A program made the translations under genes and the position numbers. A DNA stretch of 64,000 nt. It comes from Rhizobacter sp. AJA081-3 (GTDB lineage: Bacteria > Pseudomonadota > Gammaproteobacteria > Burkholderiales > Burkholderiaceae_C). The notes beneath the pieces were generated by a model, which searched no databases, had not been told where the DNA came from, and saw only the letters and a list, made by a program, of their open reading frames with translations. Shown one piece after another: positions 12,365 to 25,153 of the stretch (position 1 is the first letter of the stretch; every line of letters starts with the position of its first letter). The stretch spans positions 4,216,001-4,280,000 of the forward strand of contig NZ_CP059067.1 of the NCBI RefSeq assembly GCF_017795745.1, read 5' to 3'.

Positions 12365-13201
12365 TCACCCCGCCAGGAAACGCTCCACCAGGGCGAACTG
12401 CGCCGGCGTGTTCAGCGCCGGTGCGTGGCCGCAGCCGGCGATCTCGACCACCACCGCGCGCGGCCCGCGATTGCGCATCTGCTCGGCGGTGTCGGCCAGC
12501 AGCAGGTCGGAGTCCTCGCCGCGCAGGCACAGCACCGGGATGTCCAGCGTGTCCCACTCGTCCCACCGCAGGTAGTCGTCGTCGTGGTGGGTGAACTGCA
12601 TCACCATCGCCGGGTCGTAGTGCGGCGTGACGCGGCCGTCGGGCAGGCGCCGCACCGAGGTCTCGGTCAGGCGCCGCCACTGCGCAGCGCTCAGCCAGCC
12701 GTAGGGCTTGTAGACGGTGCGGAAGTACTGCTCCAGCTCGCTCACGGTCGCGAAGGCCGCCGGGCTGCCGGCGTAGCTGCGGATGCGCTGGATCGCCGCG
12801 TCGGCGAGCTGCGGGCCGTTGTCGTTGAGCACCAGCCGGCGGATGCGGCCCTGCAGCGCGGTCGCTGCGGCGACGATGCCGATGGCCCCGCCCATCGAGG
12901 TGCCGAGCCAATGGAAACGCTCGATGCCCAGCCCGTCGACCAGCGCGGCGGCCAGCTTCACGTAGAACGCCAGGCAGTACTCCTGCTCGGGCGCCGGGCT
13001 CCATTGGCTGAGTCCGCGGCCGATCGTGTCGGGGCAGATCACCCGGTAGCGCTGCGAGAGGTGCCGTGCGATGTCGTCCATGTCGCGGCCAGTGCGCGCC
13101 AGGCCGTGCCAGGCGATCACCGTCTCGGCATGCCGCGAGCCCCACTCGGTGTAGTGGAGTTCGCGGCCTTCGCAGGCGATGTAGTTCGACGTGAAACTCA
13201 T
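12365..13201 (-). CDS. Alpha/beta-hydrolase, cytoplasmic
   Basis: This 278-residue alpha/beta-hydrolase has no signal peptide. The oxyanion region is IAWHGLARTGRD, the nucleophile elbow is WLGTSMGG (Ser in G-T-S-M-G), an Asp follows in LRGEDSDLLL, and the catalytic His is in GCGHAPALN. It starts 13 nt after the 3HB oligomer hydrolase stop, on the same strand. A role in cleaving small imported esters such as 3-hydroxybutyrate dimers would fit the context but is not shown by sequence. Epoxide hydrolase or other esterase roles are alternatives. Confidence 0.83.
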   Translation of the reverse strand: MSFTSNYIACEGRELHYTEWGSRHAETVIAWHGLARTGRDMDDIARHLSQRYRVICPDTIGRGLSQWSPAPEQEYCLAFYVKLAAALVDGLGIERFHWLGTSMGGAIGIVAAATALQGRIRRLVLNDNGPQLADAAIQRIRSYAGSPAAFATVSELEQYFRTVYKPYGWLSAAQWRRLTETSVRRLPDGRVTPHYDPAMVMQFTHHDDDYLRWDEWDTLDIPVLCLRGEDSDLLLADTAEQMRNRGPRAVVVEIAGCGHAPALNTPAQFALVERFLAG

Positions 13202-13214
13202 GCCGCCTCGGCTC

Positions 13215-15416
13215 TCAGTCGGGAACCACCAGCGTGTTGCCCTGCATGCGGATCGCGTCGGCCTGCGCCGGGCGGCGAACGATCGGCGGCACGTTGTCGG
13301 CGGTGATCGCCGGCGCGGCACCGGCCACCCCGCCGCGCGGCACGGTGCGCACCACCTGGCTGTCGGGCAGCGGCTGGCCGTGGCGCAGGTGCGCATACAT
13401 CGCGTCGAGCGCGCGGTTCAGGTAGACGTGCAGCGGGATGTAGCGCGTGTCGTAGCCGCCCAGCAGCGTCGGCAGGCCGATGAAGGTGTCGAAGTGCTGC
13501 GCGTTGGTGACCTCGATGTACGACAGCCGGCTGTGCCGCCCCTCGACGCGCTTGTTCAGCGCCGTGTAGGGCCGCGAGCTGTGGTTCACCGGGATCAGCG
13601 CGTCGGCGCGGCCGTGCACGATGATCGCCGGCTTGCGCTGAAGGTTGCCGCTGCGCAGCGTCTCGCCAATCCCCTGCTGCAGCGCCAGTGCCTTCGCGTC
13701 GCTGCCGGTGAGCAGGTTGCGCAGGCACAGCGCGCCGTCGAGGTTGAAGTCCTGCTTGAAGGTCGAGGGCGACAAGGACACCAGGTCGCGCAGCACCCGG
13801 CCCGGGCTCAGGTTGTTGATGAGCTGCACGCCCGAAGACGGCGGCACGCCGTTGCCGGTGGCGGCCATCGCCGCGAGAGACGCTGGCAGCAGCGTGTCGA
13901 CTTCGAACGAGGCCGTCGTGGCCGCATAGCTGTAGCCGCACAGCGAATCGGCCACGCTGGAGCGCGACAGCGCATTGCCGAAGGTCACCGCCACCGCCGG
14001 CGCCACCTCGAAGGCGGCGAGCGACGCATGCAGCACCGCCGACTCCGGCTCCCAGCCGTAGGCCGCCAGCTTGGCGAGCGCTTCGTCGGCCTGGCCGGTG
14101 GTGGTGTCGGCCGTCAGCAGGCCCTTGGCCTTGAGCGAGGCGCAGCGGTTGGCGGCAAACGCCGCCACCACGAAGCCGATGCCCGGCGCGCCGGCCACCT
14201 GCGGCGACAGCGCCGCGCAGCTCTGGAACAGGTTGGCCTGCGTGGTGTAGTCGTACAGCACCTTGCCGGCGGTGGCCTGCAGCACGCCACCGCGTTGCAC
14301 GGCGATGCCGGCGTCCTGCGGCAGCTCGACGGCCGGTTCGGACACGGCCACGCCGTCGATCAGGCGCTCGCGGTCGAGCTCGGCGGCCGACAGCGCCGAG
14401 GCGCCGCCGTTGCTGACGCTCGAGGCGATCACCAGGGTGTTGGCCGGGCGGATCGTGCGCAGCGTCTCGCCCTTCGGCAGCGCGATGCCGTAGCGCTCGT
14501 TCAGCGCCCAGTAGGCGAACTCGATCGCCTGCAGCGTGAAGCGACCCCAGTCCTTCTCGGGGTTGCGCTGCGAGTGCGCATGCTTGAAGGCGAAGCGGTT
14601 CGGCGTGGCGGCGTTGAAGGCGGCAAGCTGCGCCGCGTCCAGCGGCGCGCGGAACTGCGCCGAGTCGCCGGCCGCGGCGGCCGTGGCACGCGTGCCGTCG
14701 ATCAGCGGCACGGTGTCGGCCACCAGGTCGTGCGCGGCGGCGCCGGTGCCCTTGTCGGTGTAGGCCACCGCGCAGCCGCGCTTGAGGCCCCACTCGCCGG
14801 TGCTGATGCCGCCGTACACGCCGCGCGAACCCGACGAGGTGGCGGTGACGATGCAGGGCTTGCGCGGGTCGAAGTGGGCCGGAACCTGCACCATCAGCAC
14901 GACGTTCTGCGACACGGCACTGCCATCGGCACCGCGGCTGTAGGCGATGTACTCGGTGCCGGCGATCCGGCCTTCGCCGGCGGTCACCGTACCGTCGGCC
15001 GCCACGTTCGGGCCGTAGAGCGTGCCGTAGCCGCCGGCCGCCGTCATGTCGACGATGGCGCGGTAGTTGTTGTAGATCGCCGCGCGGCGCAGCTCGGCTG
15101 CGCTGGGCGCCAGCGCATTGGCGTAGCCCGGCGCCACGACGCTGGCCAGGCCGGTCTTGCCCAGGCCGGCAGTCAGCAGGTCATCGGTCGTGCCGTCATA
15201 GGCTGTCTTGCGCACCTCGCCGGCGATGAATCGCGGGAGGCGGTTGAACAGGCCACGCGGGCCGCGGTCGGCCCGCTCATCGGCGCCGCGATCGCGGTCG
15301 GTCGAGGCGGTCTGCGCCGTGGCGCGCGCGTCGGCCGTGGCCGCTTCGCCGCCGCCCCCGCAGGCCGCGGTGAGGGCCGCCGCCGCCAGCGGTGCGAACA
15401 GGTTCTTCGTCTTCAT
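13215..15416 (-). CDS. D-(-)-3-hydroxybutyrate oligomer hydrolase
   Basis: This 733-residue protein matches the 3HB-oligomer hydrolase family (usually about 700 residues), which cleaves oligomers released from PHB to the monomer. It starts with a lipoprotein-like leader (LAAAALTAACGGGGE, lipobox-like, with Thr at -3), so it is probably exported or outer-membrane anchored. The likely nucleophile Ser335 sits in S-V-S-N-G (ASSVSNGGAS), the motif described for this family instead of a standard lipase box. HSSRPYTALN and VTNAQHFDTFIGLP carry probable catalytic His residues. Its ATG overlaps the LivM stop (ATGA), placing it in the transporter operon. An in-frame ORF continues upstream through livM but has no family similarity. 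Confidence 0.9.
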   Translation of the reverse strand: MKTKNLFAPLAAAALTAACGGGGEAATADARATAQTASTDRDRGADERADRGPRGLFNRLPRFIAGEVRKTAYDGTTDDLLTAGLGKTGLASVVAPGYANALAPSAAELRRAAIYNNYRAIVDMTAAGGYGTLYGPNVAADGTVTAGEGRIAGTEYIAYSRGADGSAVSQNVVLMVQVPAHFDPRKPCIVTATSSGSRGVYGGISTGEWGLKRGCAVAYTDKGTGAAAHDLVADTVPLIDGTRATAAAAGDSAQFRAPLDAAQLAAFNAATPNRFAFKHAHSQRNPEKDWGRFTLQAIEFAYWALNERYGIALPKGETLRTIRPANTLVIASSVSNGGASALSAAELDRERLIDGVAVSEPAVELPQDAGIAVQRGGVLQATAGKVLYDYTTQANLFQSCAALSPQVAGAPGIGFVVAAFAANRCASLKAKGLLTADTTTGQADEALAKLAAYGWEPESAVLHASLAAFEVAPAVAVTFGNALSRSSVADSLCGYSYAATTASFEVDTLLPASLAAMAATGNGVPPSSGVQLINNLSPGRVLRDLVSLSPSTFKQDFNLDGALCLRNLLTGSDAKALALQQGIGETLRSGNLQRKPAIIVHGRADALIPVNHSSRPYTALNKRVEGRHSRLSYIEVTNAQHFDTFIGLPTLLGGYDTRYIPLHVYLNRALDAMYAHLRHGQPLPDSQVVRTVPRGGVAGAAPAITADNVPPIVRRPAQADAIRMQGNTLVVPD

Positions 15417-16498
15417 GCCTTGTCTCCTCCGGGTGGTGCGCGTCTCATCGCGCGCAGTCGCCCCACCACGCCGGTGGGGAAGTGATAAACCGACAACACG
15501 AACAGCAGGCCCAGCCAGAGCAGCCAGCGGTCGGGCGAGACGAGCGCCGCGAGCACGGGCACACCCTCCAGCGCCGATGCGCCGAGCTTGAGCAGGTCCT
15601 GCAGGTAGTTCTGCGCGATGACGAACAGCACCGAGCCGATCACCGCGCCATACACCGTGCCCATGCCGCCGATGACGACGACGAGCAGGATGTCGAGCAT
15701 GATCTCGAAGGACAGCGAGGTGTCCGGCCCCTGGTAGCGCAGCCACAGCGCGAGCAGGCAGCCAGCCAGCGTGGCGAACAGCGCCGACAGCACCGAGGCC
15801 AGCGTGCGCCACACCACCGTGCGGTAGCCGATCGCCTCGGCGCGGAAGTCGTTCTCGCGGATCGCCTGCAGCACGCGGCCGAAGGGCGAGTTGACGATGC
15901 GCAGCAGCGCCAGAACGAGCAGCGCCGCGACACCGAACAGCAGGTAGTAGGTGACGAAGCGCCCATCGACCGATGCGCCCAGCAGCGGCGCGTCGAGGTA
16001 CAACGTGCCGGGCTGCAGCGCCTCGGGCACCTTGAAGTTCAGGCCGTCCTCGCCGCCGGTGAAGTCCGACAGCTGCGAGGCCAGCGTCAGGAAGGCCGAG
16101 GCCACAGCCAGCGTGATCATCGCGAAGAAGATCGCCTTCACGCGCAGCGAGGCCAGGCCGATGAGCAGCGCCAGCGCCAGCGACACGAGCAGCGCCGCGC
16201 CCGTGCCCAGTGCCACCGCGCCCCAGCCCGGGCCCAGACGCGTGCTGGCGATGGCGATGCCGTAGGCGCCGATGCCGAAGAACATCGTGTGCGCGAAGCT
16301 GACGATGCCGGTGTAGCCGAGCAGCAGGTCGAAGCTGGCCACCAGCACGATGAAGACGATGATCTTGGCCGCCACGTTCAGCGCCTTCGTGCCGGGGAAC
16401 AGGAAGGGCGTGAGCGCCAGACCGAGCACGATGGCCACGAGCAGGATCGCCAGCCAGCGGCTGCGCGGGAGGTCGTCGGAGAGCAGGCGTCGAATCAT
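15413..16498 (-). CDS. livM: Liv-type ABC transporter permease, LivM subunit
   Basis: This 361-residue inner-membrane permease has about 10 hydrophobic segments and LivM landmarks: FDLLLGYTGIVSFAHTMFFG (the substrate-path motif after TM2-3), RVKAIFFAMITLA, and SPFGRVLQAIRENDFRAEAI (the EAA loop that contacts the ATPase). It forms the membrane pore with LivH. Two coupling signals stand out: it starts 5 nt after the livH stop, and its stop overlaps the 3HB oligomer hydrolase start. Ligands of Liv-type systems include amino acids, amides, aromatic acids and short-chain acids. The two flanking PHB-degrading genes suggest 3-hydroxybutyrate or its short oligomers here (inference). Confidence 0.9.
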   Translation of the reverse strand: MIRRLLSDDLPRSRWLAILLVAIVLGLALTPFLFPGTKALNVAAKIIVFIVLVASFDLLLGYTGIVSFAHTMFFGIGAYGIAIASTRLGPGWGAVALGTGAALLVSLALALLIGLASLRVKAIFFAMITLAVASAFLTLASQLSDFTGGEDGLNFKVPEALQPGTLYLDAPLLGASVDGRFVTYYLLFGVAALLVLALLRIVNSPFGRVLQAIRENDFRAEAIGYRTVVWRTLASVLSALFATLAGCLLALWLRYQGPDTSLSFEIMLDILLVVVIGGMGTVYGAVIGSVLFVIAQNYLQDLLKLGASALEGVPVLAALVSPDRWLLWLGLLFVLSVYHFPTGVVGRLRAMRRAPPGGDKA

Positions 16499-16503
16499 CG
16501 TGC

Positions 16504-17502
16504 TCACCGGTTTGCCACGGGGTACAGGCCCTGCGGCCGCCACAGCAGCACCGCCACCATCAGCGCGATGCTCGCGAAGGCGGTGAACACCGGCGCGACG
16601 AAGCCGGTGTAGTTGACCAGCAGGCCGACCAGCAGCGCACCGACGAAGCAGCCCAGCGTCGAGCCGAGGCCGCCGATGATGATGACGATGAAGATCAGCA
16701 CGTTGACCTGCGCGCCGAGCTGCGGAATGACGTTCTGCTGGAACAGCCCCCACATCACGCCACCCAGGCCGGCCAGGGCCGAGCCGACGACGAACACGCC
16801 GACGAACAGGCGGCGGATGCGGTAGCCGAGCGCCTCGACCATCTCGCGGTCCTGCACGCCCGCGCGCACCAGCAGGCCGATCTTCGTGCGCACCAGCACG
16901 TGGAGCATGGCGGCGAGCACGAAGGCGCCGATGGCCACCGCGAGCACGCGGTACTTGCCGATCGCGGCGTCGCCGATCAGGATGGAGCCGCGCAGCGCCT
17001 CGGGCAACGCGAGCGGGCGCTGCTCGGGGCCCCAGATCACCTTGATCAGCTCCTCGCCGATGATCATGCCGCCCATGGTGATGAGGATCTGCTTGAGGTG
17101 CTGGCCGTACACCGGCCGCACCATCACGCGCTCGAAGGCCCAGCCGATGGCACCGGCCAGCGCCATCGCCGCCACCATCGCGGTGAACACTGCCACCAGG
17201 TTGCGCACGAGGCTGTCCACCGACGTCCAGTCGGCCATGCCGGCGAACACCGTGGTCGCCACGTAGGCGCCGAAGGCGATGAACACGCCGTGGCCGAAGT
17301 TCAGCACGTCCATCAGGCCGAAGACGAGCGTGAGGCCCGAGGCGGTGACGAAGACGATCATGCCCATGGCCAGGCCGGCGATGGTCAGCGTCAGCCAGGT
17401 CGAGGGCGAACCGATCAGCGGCAGCGCCAGCAGCGCGAGCAGCGGCACCAGGGCCAGCGGCAGCCAGTCGAAGCTGGCCTTCGGGATGGCGGCGGTGCTC
17501 AT
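16504..17502 (-). CDS. livH: Liv-type ABC transporter permease, LivH subunit
   Basis: This 332-residue membrane permease contains FGLMDVLNFGHGVFIAFGAY, the LivH signature, and LVRAGVQDREMVEALGYRIR, the cytoplasmic EAA-like loop. VNVLIFIVIIIGGLGSTLGC marks the conserved late helix. LivH and LivM normally form a heterodimer driven by LivG and LivF. Its ATG overlaps the livF stop by 4 nt (ATGA), which implies translational coupling and fixed stoichiometry. Length is somewhat above the typical 290-310 because of an N-terminal extension of about 25 residues before the first helix. Confidence 0.92.
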   Translation of the reverse strand: MSTAAIPKASFDWLPLALVPLLALLALPLIGSPSTWLTLTIAGLAMGMIVFVTASGLTLVFGLMDVLNFGHGVFIAFGAYVATTVFAGMADWTSVDSLVRNLVAVFTAMVAAMALAGAIGWAFERVMVRPVYGQHLKQILITMGGMIIGEELIKVIWGPEQRPLALPEALRGSILIGDAAIGKYRVLAVAIGAFVLAAMLHVLVRTKIGLLVRAGVQDREMVEALGYRIRRLFVGVFVVGSALAGLGGVMWGLFQQNVIPQLGAQVNVLIFIVIIIGGLGSTLGCFVGALLVGLLVNYTGFVAPVFTAFASIALMVAVLLWRPQGLYPVANR

Positions 17503-18233
17503 TGGTGCGCTCCCAGCGACAGACCGAGCAGGCGCTGCTGAAGCGCGTCGTTCTCCGCCAGCTCGGCCATGGCGCCGCGGTGCACGACGCGGCCGTCGTC
17601 CATCACCGCGACGGTGTCGCCCAGCGCCCGGGCCATCGCGAAGTTCTGCTCGACCAGCAGCACGGTGGTCTGCGTTGTCTTCAACTCGCGCAGCGCGGCG
17701 ATCAGGTTGCCGACGATGGCCGGTGCCAGGCCCTTGCTCGGCTCGTCGATCAGCAGCAGCCGCCGCGGCTCGACGATGGCGCGCGCGATGGCCAGCATCT
17801 GCTTCTGCCCGCCCGACAGCTTGCCGGCCGGATACAGCCAGAACTTCTTCAGCGCCGGGAACAGGCCGAAGATCCAGTCCAGGCGCTGCGTGTCGATGTC
17901 GTCGATGCGGCGTGCACCACGCGCGGCGAGCAGCAGGTTCTCGCGAACCGTCAGGTCGCCGAAGATGCCCATGCTCTCGGGCACGTAGGCGATGCCGAGC
18001 TGCGCGATGTCGGGCGTGGGGCGGCGATGGATGGTCGCGCCTTCGAAACTCACCGTCCCCGCCGACGCGGCCCACAAGCCCATGATCGTGCGCAGCGTGG
18101 TCGTCTTGCCGGCGCCGTTGCGACCGAGCAGCATGGTCACCTGGCCCAGCGGCACCTCGAAGTCCACGCCATGCAGGATGTGGTAACTGCCGATGTGGGT
18201 GTGCACGCCTTCGAGCTTGAGGAGCGTGCTCAT
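17499..18233 (-). CDS. livF: Liv-type ABC transporter ATPase, LivF subunit
   Basis: This 244-residue ABC ATPase has Walker A GRNGAGKTT, signature LSGGQKQMLAIARA, Walker B LLLIDEPSKGLAP and switch His replaced in the usual LivF manner (LLVEQNFAMA). AQLGIAYVPESMGIFGDLTV is the Q-loop/LivF-specific region. It energises import through LivHM together with LivG. Four-base ATGA overlaps link it to livG upstream and livH downstream. Confidence 0.93.
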   Translation of the reverse strand: MSTLLKLEGVHTHIGSYHILHGVDFEVPLGQVTMLLGRNGAGKTTTLRTIMGLWAASAGTVSFEGATIHRRPTPDIAQLGIAYVPESMGIFGDLTVRENLLLAARGARRIDDIDTQRLDWIFGLFPALKKFWLYPAGKLSGGQKQMLAIARAIVEPRRLLLIDEPSKGLAPAIVGNLIAALRELKTTQTTVLLVEQNFAMARALGDTVAVMDDGRVVHRGAMAELAENDALQQRLLGLSLGAHQ

Positions 18234-18988
18234 GCCGGCTCCTCCACCGTGCTGGTGCCGAGGTAGGCGCTCTGCACCACCGGCGAGGCGATCACCGCCT
18301 CGGGCTCGCCGTCGGCGACGAGCTGGCCGTTGTGCAGCACGATGATGCGGTCGGCCAGCTCGCGCACGACGTCCATCTTGTGCTCGACGAGCAGGATGGT
18401 CTTGTTGCGCTGCTGCTTGAGCGCGCGGATCAGGTCCAGCACCACCGGCACGTCGTCGACGCTCATGCCGGCCGTGGGCTCGTCGAACATGTAGACGCTC
18501 GGCTCCAGCGCCATCAGCATCGCCACCTCGAGCTTGCGCTGGTCGCCGTGCGGCAGGCTGGCGGCGGGCGCGTCGGCGCGGTCGGCCAGCTTGACGCGGT
18601 CGACGAGCAGGTGCGCCCGCTCCAGGGTGTTGCGGTGGTCGCTCCACACCGACCACAGGTTCAGGCCCTCGCGGCGGCGCGATTGCACGGCCAGGCGCAC
18701 GTTCTCCAGCACCGACAGGTTGGGGAACAGCTGCGTCAGCTGGAAGGCTCGGCCGATGCCGCGGTGCGTGCGCTGCGGCGTGGCCTCGTTCGTGATGTCG
18801 GCGCCGTTCAGGTGCACCGAGCCTTCGCTGGCGCGCAGCTGGCCGGAGATCAGGTTGAAGTAGGTCGTCTTGCCCGCGCCGTTGGGCCCGACGATGGCCG
18901 TCAGCGTGCCGGGCTCGAAGCGGCACGACACATGGTCGACGGCCACGTGGCCACCGAAGCGGATGGTGAGGTCCTTCGTCTCGAGCAT
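18230..18988 (-). CDS. livG: Liv-type ABC transporter ATPase, LivG subunit
   Basis: This 252-residue ABC ATPase has Walker A GPNGAGKTT, Walker B VYMFDEPTAGM and switch His in LLVEHKMDVV. The family landmark RGIGRAFQLTQLFPNLSVLE contains the Q-loop. The ABC signature is atypical: LPHGDQRKLEVAM instead of the usual LSYGEQR, with Pro at the second position and Asp for Glu. It starts 8 nt after the PHB depolymerase stop, so an extracellular enzyme gene sits between the receptor and the ATPases of the same transporter. Confidence 0.92.
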   Translation of the reverse strand: MLETKDLTIRFGGHVAVDHVSCRFEPGTLTAIVGPNGAGKTTYFNLISGQLRASEGSVHLNGADITNEATPQRTHRGIGRAFQLTQLFPNLSVLENVRLAVQSRRREGLNLWSVWSDHRNTLERAHLLVDRVKLADRADAPAASLPHGDQRKLEVAMLMALEPSVYMFDEPTAGMSVDDVPVVLDLIRALKQQRNKTILLVEHKMDVVRELADRIIVLHNGQLVADGEPEAVIASPVVQSAYLGTSTVEEPA

Positions 18989-18996
18989 GGGGCAGG

Positions 18997-20496
18997 TCAG
19001 GGGCAGGTGCCGATCACGTAGAAGTTCGGCGCGGTCTGCTTCAGCGTGGTGGTGACGAACACGTTCCACAGGCCCATGTTCTGGTTCGAGCCGTTGGCCA
19101 ATGCGAAGCCGCCGGACACATGGGCGCGGCCGGCCGTGGTGTGCGCGTAGTTCGACGCGGTGAAGCAGGTCGCCGCCACGCTGCCGGTGGTCGTGCCGGT
19201 GGCCGGCGCGGACGCGGTGCTCTCGGCGCCGTTGGCGTCGACCGCGGTCACCGTCCAGCTGTAGGTGGTGGCGGCAGCCAGGCCGCTGTCGGTGTAGCTC
19301 GTGGCCGCGACCGGCGCGGCGGTGACACGGCCACCGTTGCGATAGACGTGGTAGCCCGCCGCGCCGCTGACGCCGGCCCAGGCCACCACCATGCTGCTGG
19401 CGGTGGCGCCCGAGGTCGCCACGCCGGTCGGCGCGGCCAGCGCGGTACCGCCACCACCGCCGCCGGAGCCCGTGCCGGACGCAAGCCGGTCGACCATCGC
19501 CTTGATCGCCGCCACCTGCGTGCCGGCTCGCTGCGCGAAGTTGCCACCGTACCAGCCGATCCAGTCCCAGCAGCCGTTGGGGTTGGCCAGCGAGCCGCTG
19601 GCGGCGGTGGCGCGGCTGCTGCTGTCCACACGCGTCTGCGGGAACAGCACGACGATGCGGTTGGTGTCGGCCCAGCGTGTGTAGCCGGTGCTCTTGAGGA
19701 ACCTGTCGCCGATGGTCGCGACGTTCTGCTGGCAGCCGTGCAGCGCCACGTGCAGCCGGCAGCTCGCGCCGGCAGCGCACTCGGCCGGCACGTAGACCCA
19801 ACCGGTGGGCGCCACGCCCGCGTTGGTGGTGAACGCGGTCTGGTCGAACTCGATGTAGTTGGCGGCCGCCGGCGTGTTGTTGCGTGCGTTGAGCGTGCCG
19901 TAGAACTTCGACAGCACGGCCTTGGCGCCGTCGTAGCCGCAGTTGCTGATGTAGGGCGAGACGCTGCTGCTGCAGGCGTTGTTGCCGGTGGCGTCGAAGT
20001 CGGTCGGGAACACATGCGCCGTGCTGTTGCGGCGCACGAACTCCAGGTTGGCCGCGGCCACGCCGTTGTTCTGGTACTGCGTCTGCAGCGCCAGCATCGG
20101 GTTGGGCCCGACGGTGAAGTCGCTGTTGCCGACGAACAGGAAGATCTTCTGCGCGGCGATGTTGCTCTTCGCGTCGATCGCCGTGCCGCTCCAGTTGTTG
20201 ATGTCGGCCTGCATCGTGCTCAGCGCCGAGCTGGAGATGCTCGCGTTGTACATGCACGCGGTGTAGCTGGCGTGCCCCGCGCACATGTACGGCCCGCCGG
20301 CGAACACGCCCACGCCCTTGAAGGTGGCCGAGTGCGCCACGCCGAGCTGGTTGGCCATGAAGCCGCCCGACGACAGGCCCGAGACGGTGATCTGGGCCTT
20401 GTCGATGACGAGCTGCGGCAGCGCCACGGCGGCAAAGGCCGTCGATGACACGAACGCCGCGACGCCCGCGAGTCCTCGCAGGAAAACCGACTTCAT
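18997..20496 (-). CDS. Extracellular poly(3-hydroxybutyrate) depolymerase, type 2 catalytic domain, Fn3 linker, C-terminal binding domain
   Basis: This 499-residue secreted esterase has a signal peptide (residues 1-23). The lipase box G40-L-S42-S-G is close to the N-terminus, the likely acid is Asp126 (GNSDFTV), the likely base is His161, and the oxyanion-type His253 (ALHGCQQ) comes last. This order is the circularly permuted type 2 arrangement of PHB depolymerases. A Gly run (344-350) leads into an Fn3 domain (about 352-440) and a C-terminal domain (444-498, ATCFTASNYAHTTAGRAH) like known short polyester-binding domains. A strong AGGAGG lies 6 nt before the ATG. It starts 39 nt after the Liv-type receptor stop. 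Secretion through the type II system is likely (inference). Confidence 0.92.
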   Translation of the reverse strand: MKSVFLRGLAGVAAFVSSTAFAAVALPQLVIDKAQITVSGLSSGGFMANQLGVAHSATFKGVGVFAGGPYMCAGHASYTACMYNASISSSALSTMQADINNWSGTAIDAKSNIAAQKIFLFVGNSDFTVGPNPMLALQTQYQNNGVAAANLEFVRRNSTAHVFPTDFDATGNNACSSSVSPYISNCGYDGAKAVLSKFYGTLNARNNTPAAANYIEFDQTAFTTNAGVAPTGWVYVPAECAAGASCRLHVALHGCQQNVATIGDRFLKSTGYTRWADTNRIVVLFPQTRVDSSSRATAASGSLANPNGCWDWIGWYGGNFAQRAGTQVAAIKAMVDRLASGTGSGGGGGGTALAAPTGVATSGATASSMVVAWAGVSGAAGYHVYRNGGRVTAAPVAATSYTDSGLAAATTYSWTVTAVDANGAESTASAPATGTTTGSVAATCFTASNYAHTTAGRAHVSGGFALANGSNQNMGLWNVFVTTTLKQTAPNFYVIGTCP

Positions 20497-20535: not shown

Positions 20536-21735
20536 TCAACGCTTGTTGCGGATCGGCACGGCCATCTCTTCGGCCTTGATCTCGCGCACCAGCTCGGGCA
20601 CGCCCCAGGCGAAGGCCGGGTCCACCTTGATCTTGAAGTGGTACATCGACTGCATGGCCTGGTGGTCTTCCTTGCGGAAGCTCATCTTGCCCTTGGGCGT
20701 CTCGAAGCTCATGCCCTCCATGGTCTTGATGAGCTTCTCGGTGTTCGCGTCGCCGGCGGTCTTCTTCAGCGCCTCGACCACCGCGATCGCCGCGCTCATG
20801 CCGCCCGCGGTGAAGAAATCCGGCGGGTTCTTGAACTGCTTGTAGTGGTTGGCCACCAGCCACTCGTTGACCGGGTTCTTCGGGATGCCGAAGTAGTAGT
20901 AGGTCGCGCCTTCCATGCCGGGGAAGTTCTTGTACGAGGCCATCGCCGGCAGGATGTTGCCGCCGGTGGCGATTTCGATGTTGTAGCGCTTGAGGTCGAG
21001 ATCGGCGATCTTGAACGGGTTGCCGGCGCCGGCCCAGATGATGAAGATCACCTTGCGGCCGGGCTGGTCCTTCAGCTTGTCGATCAGGCGCTGCGCACCG
21101 GCGGTGAAGTCGGTGGTGTTGGTCGGCAGGTATTCCTCGTGGACGATCTTGGCGCTCTTCACCGCGTCCTTGAAGGCCTTCACGCCATCGCGGCCGAAGG
21201 CGTAGTCCTGCGCCAGCGTGGCGATGCTGGTGCCGGCCTTGTCGAGCGCGACGGCGTTGCTGATCGCGTCCTGGCTGCTGTTGCGGCCGGTGCGGAAGAT
21301 GTACTTGTTCCACTTGTCGCCGGTGATCGAGTCGGCCACGGCCGGCTCGACGAGCAGGATCTTCTTGTACTCCTCGGCGACCGGCAGCAGCGCGAGCGCC
21401 ACGCCGCTGGAGGTGGGGCCGACGGCGATGTCGGCCTTGTCGTCGCCGTAGGCGGCGGCGAGCAGGCTCTTGCCCACGTCGGGCTTGCCCTGGTCGTCCT
21501 TCTCGATGACGACGAGCTTCTTGCCCGCCACCGTCATGGTGCCGCCGGTAGCGTAGTCCAGGCCCATCATGAAGCCGGTGGCGGTCTGCTTGCCGTAGGC
21601 CTCGAGCGGGCCGGTCTTGCTGTAGACGTGGGCGATCTTGATCTCGCCCTTGGACTGCGCGAAGGCGAAGGGGAGGCGCTCCAGGGCGGCGACGGCCAGG
21701 GTGCCGAGCCAGAGGCGGCGGTGGGCGTGGGGCAT
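20536..21735 (-). CDS. Periplasmic substrate-binding protein (Liv/Peripla_BP_6 type) of the PHB operon
   Basis: This 399-residue receptor has a signal peptide (MPHAHRRLWLGTLAVAALER, cleavage near FAQ). The mature part KIAHVYSKTGPLEAYGKQTA is typical of Liv/AmiC/Urt-like type I binding proteins. Other landmarks are IAVGPTSSGVALALLPVAEE and QDYAFGRDGVKAFKDAV. It is the first gene after a near-consensus sigma-54 promoter and heads the run depolymerase-LivG-LivF-LivH-LivM-oligomer hydrolase, so it is the dedicated receptor of that transporter. 3-hydroxybutyrate or its oligomers are the likely ligand, from context only. A branched-chain amino acid or another hydroxyacid cannot be excluded. Confidence 0.88.
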   Translation of the reverse strand: MPHAHRRLWLGTLAVAALERLPFAFAQSKGEIKIAHVYSKTGPLEAYGKQTATGFMMGLDYATGGTMTVAGKKLVVIEKDDQGKPDVGKSLLAAAYGDDKADIAVGPTSSGVALALLPVAEEYKKILLVEPAVADSITGDKWNKYIFRTGRNSSQDAISNAVALDKAGTSIATLAQDYAFGRDGVKAFKDAVKSAKIVHEEYLPTNTTDFTAGAQRLIDKLKDQPGRKVIFIIWAGAGNPFKIADLDLKRYNIEIATGGNILPAMASYKNFPGMEGATYYYFGIPKNPVNEWLVANHYKQFKNPPDFFTAGGMSAAIAVVEALKKTAGDANTEKLIKTMEGMSFETPKGKMSFRKEDHQAMQSMYHFKIKVDPAFAWGVPELVREIKAEEMAVPIRNKR

Positions 21736-21797
21736 GCGGTGTGTCTCCGTGAGATGGCAACAGGGTGGGCACTTGTCGGCCCGTGCCGATCAAAAAC

Positions 21798-21812
21798 GCA
21801 AACGCTGTGCCA
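21798..21812 (-). promoter_or_regulatory. Sigma-54 (-24/-12) promoter of the PHB uptake/depolymerase operon
   Basis: Read on the minus strand, the bases are TGGCAC (21812-21807), five spacer bases AGCGT, then TTGC (21801-21798). Every defined base of TGGCACR-N4-TTGCW is matched except the final W (G here). The invariant GG and GC dinucleotides are correctly spaced. Transcription would start near 21787, about 50 nt before the ATG at 21735. A sigma-54 activator is encoded about 1 kb upstream on the same strand. Confidence 0.82.
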
Positions 21813-21856
21813 CTCGGCACCGTGCAAACCCTGATCTCCGCCCGGGGCGGCCGCAT

Positions 21857-22774
21857 TCACTGCATGAACGAGAACGACCGCATGGTGCGCAACTGCGGCG
21901 ACGCTTGCGCGGCGCCGGCATCGAAAGGGTGGTCCAGTCGCCCGTAGCCACCGATGATGCGCATCACGTAGGCGCGCGTCTCGGCATAGGGCGGCACGCC
22001 GCGGTAGCGGTTCACGGTGCCTTCGCCGGCGTTGTAGGCGGCGGCGACCAGCGGCACGTTGCCTTCGAAGTAGGCCATCAGCCAGTGCAGGTAGGCCATG
22101 CCGCCGCGGATGTTCTGCTCGGCGTCGTAGGGCCTGAAGACGCCGAAGCGCGCCGCGGTGTCGGGGATCAGCTGCATCAGGCCCTTGGCGTTCTTCGGCG
22201 ACAGCGCGGCCGTGTCGTAGTTGGACTCGACCTTGATGAAGGCGAGCACCAGGCGCGGCGACAGCTTGTAGGTCGGCGCGAGCCGCTTGACGATCTCCAC
22301 GATGTGGCTCGGCGCATCGGGCGGCAGCACCTCGGGTGCGCGCACCGGGGGGCGCGCCGGCGGCCGCTCGGTCATCTGCGGTGGCGCGCGGTCGATCATG
22401 CATTCGGGCACGTAGTTGGGCGGGCCACCCACATTGGCCAGCATGCGCACCGCCTGCTCCAGGCCCTGCTCGGCCGCCGCGTGGAAGAAGAAGGCGGCCG
22501 TCGCATCGCTGCGCTCCACGCCGCGGCCGTTGGCGTACATCCAGCCGAGGTTGAACTGCGATTCGGCATCACCCAGGCGGGCAGCCTTGCAGTACAGCTG
22601 CGCGGCCTTCTCGGCATCGCGCTCCACGCCCTCGCCGTTCTCGTAGCCCAGCGCCTCGCTGCGCAGCAGCGTGCGCAGGCTGCGTTCGGCCTCGCCCTCC
22701 GCGGGCGACACGGTGGCCCGCGCCGGCGCCGCCAGCAGCAGGCAGACCAGTCCCAGGAAGGACAGGCATTGCAT
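21857..22774 (-). CDS. Lytic transglycosylase (SLT domain) with Sel1-like repeats
   Basis: This 305-residue exported protein has a signal peptide (MQCLSFLGLVCLLLAAPARA). Two Sel1-like repeats (about residues 40-110: YENGEGVERDAEKAAQLYC, then GDAESQFNLGWMYANGRGV) precede a Pro-rich linker. The C-terminal SLT domain has catalytic Glu in LAFIKVESNYD, then LMQLIPDTAARFGV and AAYNAGEG. It would cleave peptidoglycan glycan strands. The ATG at 22774 was preferred because the signal peptide begins there; an in-frame ATG at 22816 would give 319 residues. It lies between the sigma-54 activator and the PHB operon, so it might help a secretion apparatus pass the wall (inference). Confidence 0.87.
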   Translation of the reverse strand: MQCLSFLGLVCLLLAAPARATVSPAEGEAERSLRTLLRSEALGYENGEGVERDAEKAAQLYCKAARLGDAESQFNLGWMYANGRGVERSDATAAFFFHAAAEQGLEQAVRMLANVGGPPNYVPECMIDRAPPQMTERPPARPPVRAPEVLPPDAPSHIVEIVKRLAPTYKLSPRLVLAFIKVESNYDTAALSPKNAKGLMQLIPDTAARFGVFRPYDAEQNIRGGMAYLHWLMAYFEGNVPLVAAAYNAGEGTVNRYRGVPPYAETRAYVMRIIGGYGRLDHPFDAGAAQASPQLRTMRSFSFMQ

Positions 22775-22845
22775 GTTTCGCGTACAACTTCCGCCAATGA
22801 GCCGTACGAGTTTCATGCACTGCCCGGATATCGGACACATCTGGC

Positions 22846-24309
<1,464 letters not shown>

Positions 24310-24317
24310 GGGGCGCT

Positions 24318-24336
24318 GTGTCGGAAAGTCGGACAC
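24318..24336. promoter_or_regulatory. Inverted repeat before the sigma-54 activator gene
   Basis: GTGTC (24318-24322) and GACAC (24332-24336) form an inverted repeat with a 9-nt spacer, 9 nt above the chosen ATG of the sigma-54 activator. It could be an autoregulatory site or part of its leader. The repeat is short, so it may be chance. Confidence 0.3.
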
Positions 24337-24408
24337 TGTAGTCGACCGATGCGGAAACACCACCCCCTCGGGCTGGGGACGGGCATGGCTGACCGATCAC
24401 CCTGTTCT

Positions 24409-24436
24409 TGTAATTATGAATTAGTAATTGTAGAGT
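24409..24436 (+). promoter_or_regulatory. AT-rich promoter/operator region of the malonate operon
   Basis: In otherwise GC-rich DNA there is an AT island with two overlapping dyads: TAATT-ATG-AATTA (24411-24423) and AATTA-G-TAATT (24419-24429). TTGTAA (24409-24414) and TAGAGT (24431-24436), 16 bp apart, could be -35/-10 boxes of a sigma-70 promoter. The GntR start is 28 bp further on. Repression by that GntR protein is likely. Confidence 0.45.
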
Positions 24437-24463
24437 GGCCGTGAACTCATCGTCAGAACGCGC

Positions 24464-25153
24464 ATGGCCGATCCAATACCGCTCCGCCCTTCATCGCTTC
24501 ACGAAGAAGTGGCCACTCGCCTTCGAAACATGGTGTTCGAGCGCCAGCTGGCACCGGGCCAGTGGGTCGACGAGCTGGCGCTGGCGCGCGAGTGGCAGAT
24601 CAGCCGCACGCCGCTGCGCGAGGCGCTGAAGGTGCTGGCTTCCGAGGGCCTGGTGGTGTCGGTGCCGCGGCAGGGCTGCAAGGTGGCCGAGATGTCCGAG
24701 GACGATGCCGACCAGTTGCTGCCGGTGATGGCACTGCTCGAGGGCCGTTGCGCCTACGAGGCGGTGCGCCGTGCCGGCGAGGCCGACATCCGGCGGCTGC
24801 AGGTGCTGCACGAGCAGCTCGAGAAACATGCCGCCGCGAAGAACATCGACGGCTACTACCGCGCCAACCACGAGTTCCACAGCGCCGTGCAGGCGATGGC
24901 CGGCAACCGCTGGCTCGACCGCGCCACCGGCGACCTGCGCCGTTTCGTGCGCCTGCTGCGCGGCCGGCAGCTGCACTGGCCGGGCCGCATGGAGGCGTCG
25001 ATCAACGAGCATCGCGTGCTGCTCGACGCCATCGTGCAGCGCGACGCGGCGCGCGCCGAGCGTGTCATGCACGACCACCTGCTCGCCCAGCTCGCCGCGC
25101 TGAAGGCGCTGCGCCTGCACGAGACCACGCAGGGAGCACCCCATGCTGGATGA
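24464..25153 (+). CDS. GntR/FCD regulator of the malonate operon (MatR-like)
   Basis: This 229-residue regulator has a winged HTH (about 12-75: SLHEEVATRLRNMVFERQLA, then WQISRTPLREALKVLASEGL) and an FCD ligand domain (about 90-215) with metal-site pattern (ANHEFHSAV, INEHRVLLDAI, HDHL). Its gene overlaps the malonyl-CoA decarboxylase gene by 11 bp. MatR of rhizobia, a GntR protein, senses malonate and controls matABC. The same job is inferred here from context. The AT-rich dyads just upstream are candidate autoregulatory operators. Confidence 0.85.
   Translation: MADPIPLRPSSLHEEVATRLRNMVFERQLAPGQWVDELALAREWQISRTPLREALKVLASEGLVVSVPRQGCKVAEMSEDDADQLLPVMALLEGRCAYEAVRRAGEADIRRLQVLHEQLEKHAAAKNIDGYYRANHEFHSAVQAMAGNRWLDRATGDLRRFVRLLRGRQLHWPGRMEASINEHRVLLDAIVQRDAARAERVMHDHLLAQLAALKALRLHETTQGAPHAG

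Follow-up and report, generated by a model that had tools for sequence, protein, structure and literature searches.

Among the described systems, the HbcR/RpoN pair of Pseudomonas is the closest counterpart of the locus presented here. HbcR is an RpoN activator that responds to (R)-3-hydroxybutyrate (3HB) (PMC10482368), and its PAS domain comprises residues 17–123 (PMC8694187). According to Lundgren et al. (2015), as cited in PMC8694187, HbcR (PA2005) controls (R)-3-hydroxybutyrate catabolism in Pseudomonas together with RpoN. A second point of reference is the general scheme of IHF-assisted sigma-54 promoters, in which the enhancers are located 100–150 bp upstream (PMC7057263). Extracellular degradation of PHB is described to start with an induction lag (PMC13372988). 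No dedicated activator of an extracellular PHB depolymerase, nor one of the sigma-54 type, is named in the searchable literature, although absence there is not proof.

In the window, i.e., the entire analysed stretch of 64,000 nucleotides, a sigma-54 activator gene, a lytic transglycosylase gene (SLT gene) and an operon headed by the gene of a substrate-binding protein (SBP) follow each other on the minus strand (Table 1). The activator resembles HbcR: it combines PAS (PF08448), AAA+ (PF00158) and Fis-type HTH (PF02954) domains without a receiver domain, it is associated with a sigma-54 promoter and its putative targets serve the use of 3HB. However, HbcR targets a GntP permease and a 3HB dehydrogenase, whereas here a LivK/LivGFHM-type ABC transporter, a PHB depolymerase and an oligomer hydrolase are concerned. 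The DNA palindrome is a different one as well, and in the genus of the window the candidate enhancers are found about 1 kb away.

Table 1. Features of the locus, listed in the direction of transcription (positions within the window).
Feature	Position	Strand	Evidence
Sigma-70-like promoter for the activator gene, CTGACG-18-TACAAT	24427..24456	-	only sigma-70-like site in 21600-24600
Palindrome immediately preceding the activator gene, GTGTCCGACTTTCCGACAC	24318..24336	-	matrix match; shared by all six activator-carrying genomes of the genus
Sigma-54 activator, HbcR-like	22846..24309	-	likely ATG 24309 within ORF 22846-24363
Probable enhancer (UAS) 1, GTGTCCGATATCCGGGCAG	22820..22838	-	best match in 22 kb; place kept in six genomes
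Probable enhancer (UAS) 2, TTGTACGCGAAACATGCAA, degenerate, overlaps SLT start	22769..22787	-	matrix match; place kept in six genomes
Lytic transglycosylase (SLT, Sel1 repeats), between probable enhancers and promoter	21857..22774	-	domain match; start at 22774
Conserved AGGGTTT block upstream of the promoter	21826..21832	-	GGGTT invariant in six genomes of the genus
Predicted sigma-54 (-24/-12) promoter, TGGCACAGCGTTTGCG	21797..21812	-	motif match, top score, conservation, invariant boxes in the genus
Ribosome-binding site of the first operon gene, CGGAGAC	21743..21749	-	invariant block in the genus alignment
Periplasmic substrate-binding protein, LivK-like (Peripla_BP_6), operon gene 1	20536..21735	-	domain match; orthologue in 17 relatives
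Extracellular PHB depolymerase, type 2 catalytic domain and fn3	18997..20496	-	NCBIfam NF050059, 371 bits (cut-off 280)
LivG-like ABC ATPase	18230..18988	-	domain match, cross-genus comparison
LivF-like ABC ATPase	17499..18233	-	domain match, cross-genus comparison
LivH-like permease	16504..17502	-	domain match, cross-genus comparison
LivM-like permease	15413..16498	-	domain match, cross-genus comparison
3-Hydroxybutyrate oligomer hydrolase (PF10605)	13215..15416	-	Pfam 3HBOH, 1025 bits
Alpha/beta hydrolase, conserved last gene of the core operon	12365..13216	-	ORF 12365-13396, start provisional

The kinship to HbcR is reflected by sequence comparison and gene neighborhood. The activator and a protein of Pseudomonas gingeri, which served as comparison partner instead of PA2005, are reciprocal best hits with 49–51% identity, and the P. 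gingeri gene order of activator (bEBP), GntP permease and 3HB dehydrogenase (BDH) corresponds to the HbcR gene setting. Both proteins form sister branches of one supported clade (95/98), while 13 other activators of the window's own genome fall outside. In Mariluticola, a relative of the activator, a 3HB dehydrogenase and the same type of transporter adjoin, and in Cupriavidus a relative is oriented divergently from GntP and 3HB dehydrogenase genes. Another clade member is encoded on Azospirillum lipoferum plasmid AZO_p5 (L106), beside mannonate dehydratase and TRAP transporter genes. Since this member occurs in another gene setting, the ligand is not readable from kinship alone, and the clade may in part have changed its ligand. 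Judged from the gene setting, 3HB or a close relative is the likely signal of the activator. A contig scan returned mostly unrelated bEBPs among the matches listed.

The second gene of the operon belongs to the type 2 extracellular PHB depolymerases (NF050059) and its 3HBOH gene to the 3HB-oligomer hydrolases (PF10605). The initial annotation had assigned the promoter to a PHB operon, and this assignment holds with one correction: across genera, the operon core consists of the LivK/LivGFHM-type uptake system and the alpha/beta hydrolase, while PHB depolymerase and oligomer hydrolase are accessory and present or absent depending on the genus. Because of this gene company, the cargo of the transporter is presumably 3HB or its oligomers.

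The 15 bases TGGCACAGCGTTTGC at 21798–21812 on the minus strand comprise the core TGGCAC-N5-TTGC with canonical spacing (10 nt between GG and GC). The sole departure from the consensus TGGCAC-N5-TTGCW is the missed final W, with a G at 21797. Between the C of the −12 GC (21798) and the start codon ATG, whose A is at 21735, the distance is 63 nt, and the position of the site predicts a transcript start at 21786–21787. In all these points the initial annotation, which expected the start near 21787, was correct. The element resides in the 121-nt intergenic gap between the stop of the SLT gene (21857) and the start codon of the SBP gene, and its strand is the correct one for the operon. With a simple sigma-54 score, it ranks first of about 128,000 window positions, and the genome contains one rpoN gene (PF04552 match, 219 bits). 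By chance, 0.34 occurrences of the bare pattern are expected per 64-kb window, thus the string alone is unremarkable and not beyond chance. Allowing up to one mismatch to the consensus including W, we found one match in the window compared to 2.6 expected in shuffles, while a pattern count over the whole genome gave 20 occurrences versus 6 for the reversed control. What lifts the promoter call above chance are its position and its conservation. The same 15 bases are also found outside the window, at G000:C1:3300991-3301005 (minus strand), where the gene of another sigma-54 activator of this genome (L008) lies at a distance of about 1.2 kb. The AGGGTTT block at 21826–21832 occurs once in the window; it is kept in several other genera as well, often within a GGGTT(A/T)NCCC-like palindrome.

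From where the activator might act on this promoter is suggested by a 19-bp palindrome with the consensus TTGTCTGAAATTCAGACAA. In other genera, it is present in 2–3 copies 55–190 bp upstream of the −24 box, and in compact genera, in which activator and first operon gene are adjacent, the copies are typically located at about −110, −91, and −68 from the −24 T. A matrix trained exclusively on other genera was applied to 22 kb of the window, and its three best matches are those at 22838, 24336, and 22787. In 6/6 genomes of the genus with the activator, a palindrome pair is located at −922 to −1026 and none closer to the promoter. The pairs are helically phased, with a spacing of 33 bp in four of the six genomes. 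The SLT gene sits elsewhere in G012 and G015, genomes without the enhancer-SLT-promoter arrangement. On this comparative basis we lean slightly toward the view that the palindromes at 22769–22838 act as remote enhancers on the promoter.

One might argue instead that sigma-54 promoter and activator are as proposed, yet without any remote enhancers. The activator would then work from solution, from unrecognised sites in the 3′ end of the SLT gene or from the GGGTT block, which is conserved just upstream of the promoter, and the palindromes would only autoregulate an activator-SLT unit. In support of this explanation, no palindromes of the genus set score lower than the two of the window (8.8 and 8.0 versus up to 20.2 in G007), and a further copy lies directly before the activator gene. 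In addition, G013 keeps the promoter without near palindromes: none was detected within 1.4 kb upstream of the promoter, and over 12 kb no score exceeded 5.3. There, promoter and operon reside on a different contig from the activator (L083/L252), thus the promoter is driven otherwise or the link is broken in this genome. However, all other examined genera have palindromes 55–190 bp upstream of the promoter. Furthermore, the genus of the window retains the helically phased pairs, yet no sigma-54 site that would belong to the SLT gene itself is present below them. Action without remote enhancers thus appears possible, but rather doubtful. Independent of this question, the palindrome at 24318–24336 is a possible autoregulation site of the activator.

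Returning to the palindromes as candidate enhancers, their occurrence beyond the operon is limited. In G015 (L092/L251; G015:C1:682900 region), a palindrome pair and a sigma-54-like site were found between 3HB dehydrogenase and TonB-receptor genes, and this TonB-receptor gene is a likely second target of the activator. An exact palindrome search in 19 genomes yielded few additional sites. A match at 1446117 of the window's own genome was rejected, as its gene setting is unrelated, and another at the start of a deoC-like gene in G037 looks accidental. Near the activator relatives of Mariluticola, Burkholderia and P. gingeri the palindrome was not found, thus among the examined groups it is confined to the betaproteobacterial branch.

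Compact genera, with tandem palindromes at −68/−91/−110 and often an IHF consensus between these and the promoter, resemble the IHF-assisted sigma-54 promoters mentioned above. The IHF consensus WATCAANNNNTTR is present in the majority of compact loci and starts there 17–19 nt upstream of the −24 T. The count is eight exact sites and two with one mismatch, with an expectation of 0.004 exact sites per 132 nt; the loci with an exact site upstream of the SBP gene are L064, L066, L062, L060, L065, L067, L157, and L159. In contrast, the IHF consensus was found in no member of the window's genus at the SLT-SBP gap, where the palindromes are the distant ones. We interpret this loss as fitting a longer loop without need of a sharp bend. 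One might tentatively propose, at somewhat less than even confidence, that throughout the genus the enhancer naturally acts across an intact and unrelated SLT gene, through a loop of about 1 kb for which the compact-type IHF bend is dispensable.

Which activator serves the promoter was addressed by gene co-occurrence. Within a family-level set of 25 genomes, the own genome counted, orthologues of the first operon gene and of the activator always occur together: 18 genomes possess both and 7 neither (Fisher p = 2e-6, uncorrected for kinship). This supports the initial annotation, which had linked the operon to the enhancer-binding protein encoded nearby, and the probable enhancers about 1 kb upstream, beyond the SLT gene, can now be added to that link. 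Two congeners (G003 and G005) lack activator, SBP and transporter, either through loss or because these were never present, but their locus has GntR, malonyl-CoA decarboxylase, SLT, PHB depolymerase and oligomer hydrolase, with the last three flanked by the same neighbours. At the corresponding locus of both (L253, L254), neither the sigma-54 site nor the palindrome was detected. Such a joint loss of site and activator, the strict co-occurrence, the adjacency in most genomes and the palindromes adjoining the promoter in compact genera all speak against control by another sigma-54 activator of the genome, e.g., a regulator of nitrogen or carbon starvation. Although 15 strong bEBP genes are encoded there, we consider such control very improbable. 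In contrast, the activator encoded at 22846–24309 very probably controls the promoter at 21797–21812.

Scanning homologous loci for the same element, as proposed in the initial annotation, revealed the −24/−12 site upstream of the orthologous first gene in 17/17 relatives carrying that gene. It is usually the top-scoring position of the whole 4-kb locus, while the chance rate for such a site is about 1% per 130 nt. The site is likewise present in all five named loci from another collection in which activator and SBP genes are adjacent (Polaromonas MAG, uncultured beta-proteobacterium, Hydrogenophaga borbori, Quisquiliibacterium transsilvanicum, and Burkholderiales PBB3). When six genomes of the genus are aligned, GGGTT, TGGCAC, TTGC, and CGGAGAC stand out as the main invariant blocks of the SLT-SBP gap. 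The N5 spacer is variable while both boxes around it are constant, and the base after TTGC, the W position, varies among relatives too. A consensus scan of 21600–24600 detected no sigma-70-like promoter before the operon, as its sole match precedes the activator gene. Even if the bare pattern has the chance expectation given above and no terminator was found between SLT gene and operon, a mere chance match was rejected on account of the conservation in relatives, named loci and genus alignment, and expression of the operon from another promoter or by SLT read-through is most improbable. Given position, conservation and the single rpoN gene, the reading of 21797–21812 as a sigma-54 promoter, already put forward in the initial annotation, is very probably correct.

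Taken together, these sequence comparisons point, with good confidence, to a sigma-54 promoter that drives a PHB/3HB operon and to an activator that would sense 3HB or a close derivative, bind the palindrome pair, loop over about 1 kb and open the promoter. The activator is probably made from the sigma-70-like promoter at 24427–24456. Traces of 3HB that enter the cell would bind to it, probably via the PAS domain, and the activator would then occupy the pair of 19-bp palindromes in the activator-SLT gap. A DNA loop of about 1 kb, including the SLT gene, would bring it to the promoter, where the complex of sigma-54 and polymerase would be opened at 21786 through ATP hydrolysis. More 3HB, set free by depolymerase and oligomer hydrolase, would then be imported by the transporter, resulting in a positive loop. 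Through the palindrome at 24318–24336, the activator may limit its own expression.

The principle of such a control is already known from HbcR/RpoN; what is new are the target operon and the displaced candidate enhancers. Since the positions of regulator, promoter and candidate enhancers are given with single-base precision, a soluble-product switch, i.e., 3HB or oligomers that turn on depolymerase and uptake, becomes directly testable. Furthermore, the family offers natural variants of one promoter, from those with putative enhancers close by and an IHF site to those with putative enhancers 1 kb off and no IHF site, and this series is useful for studying the evolution of sigma-54 loops.
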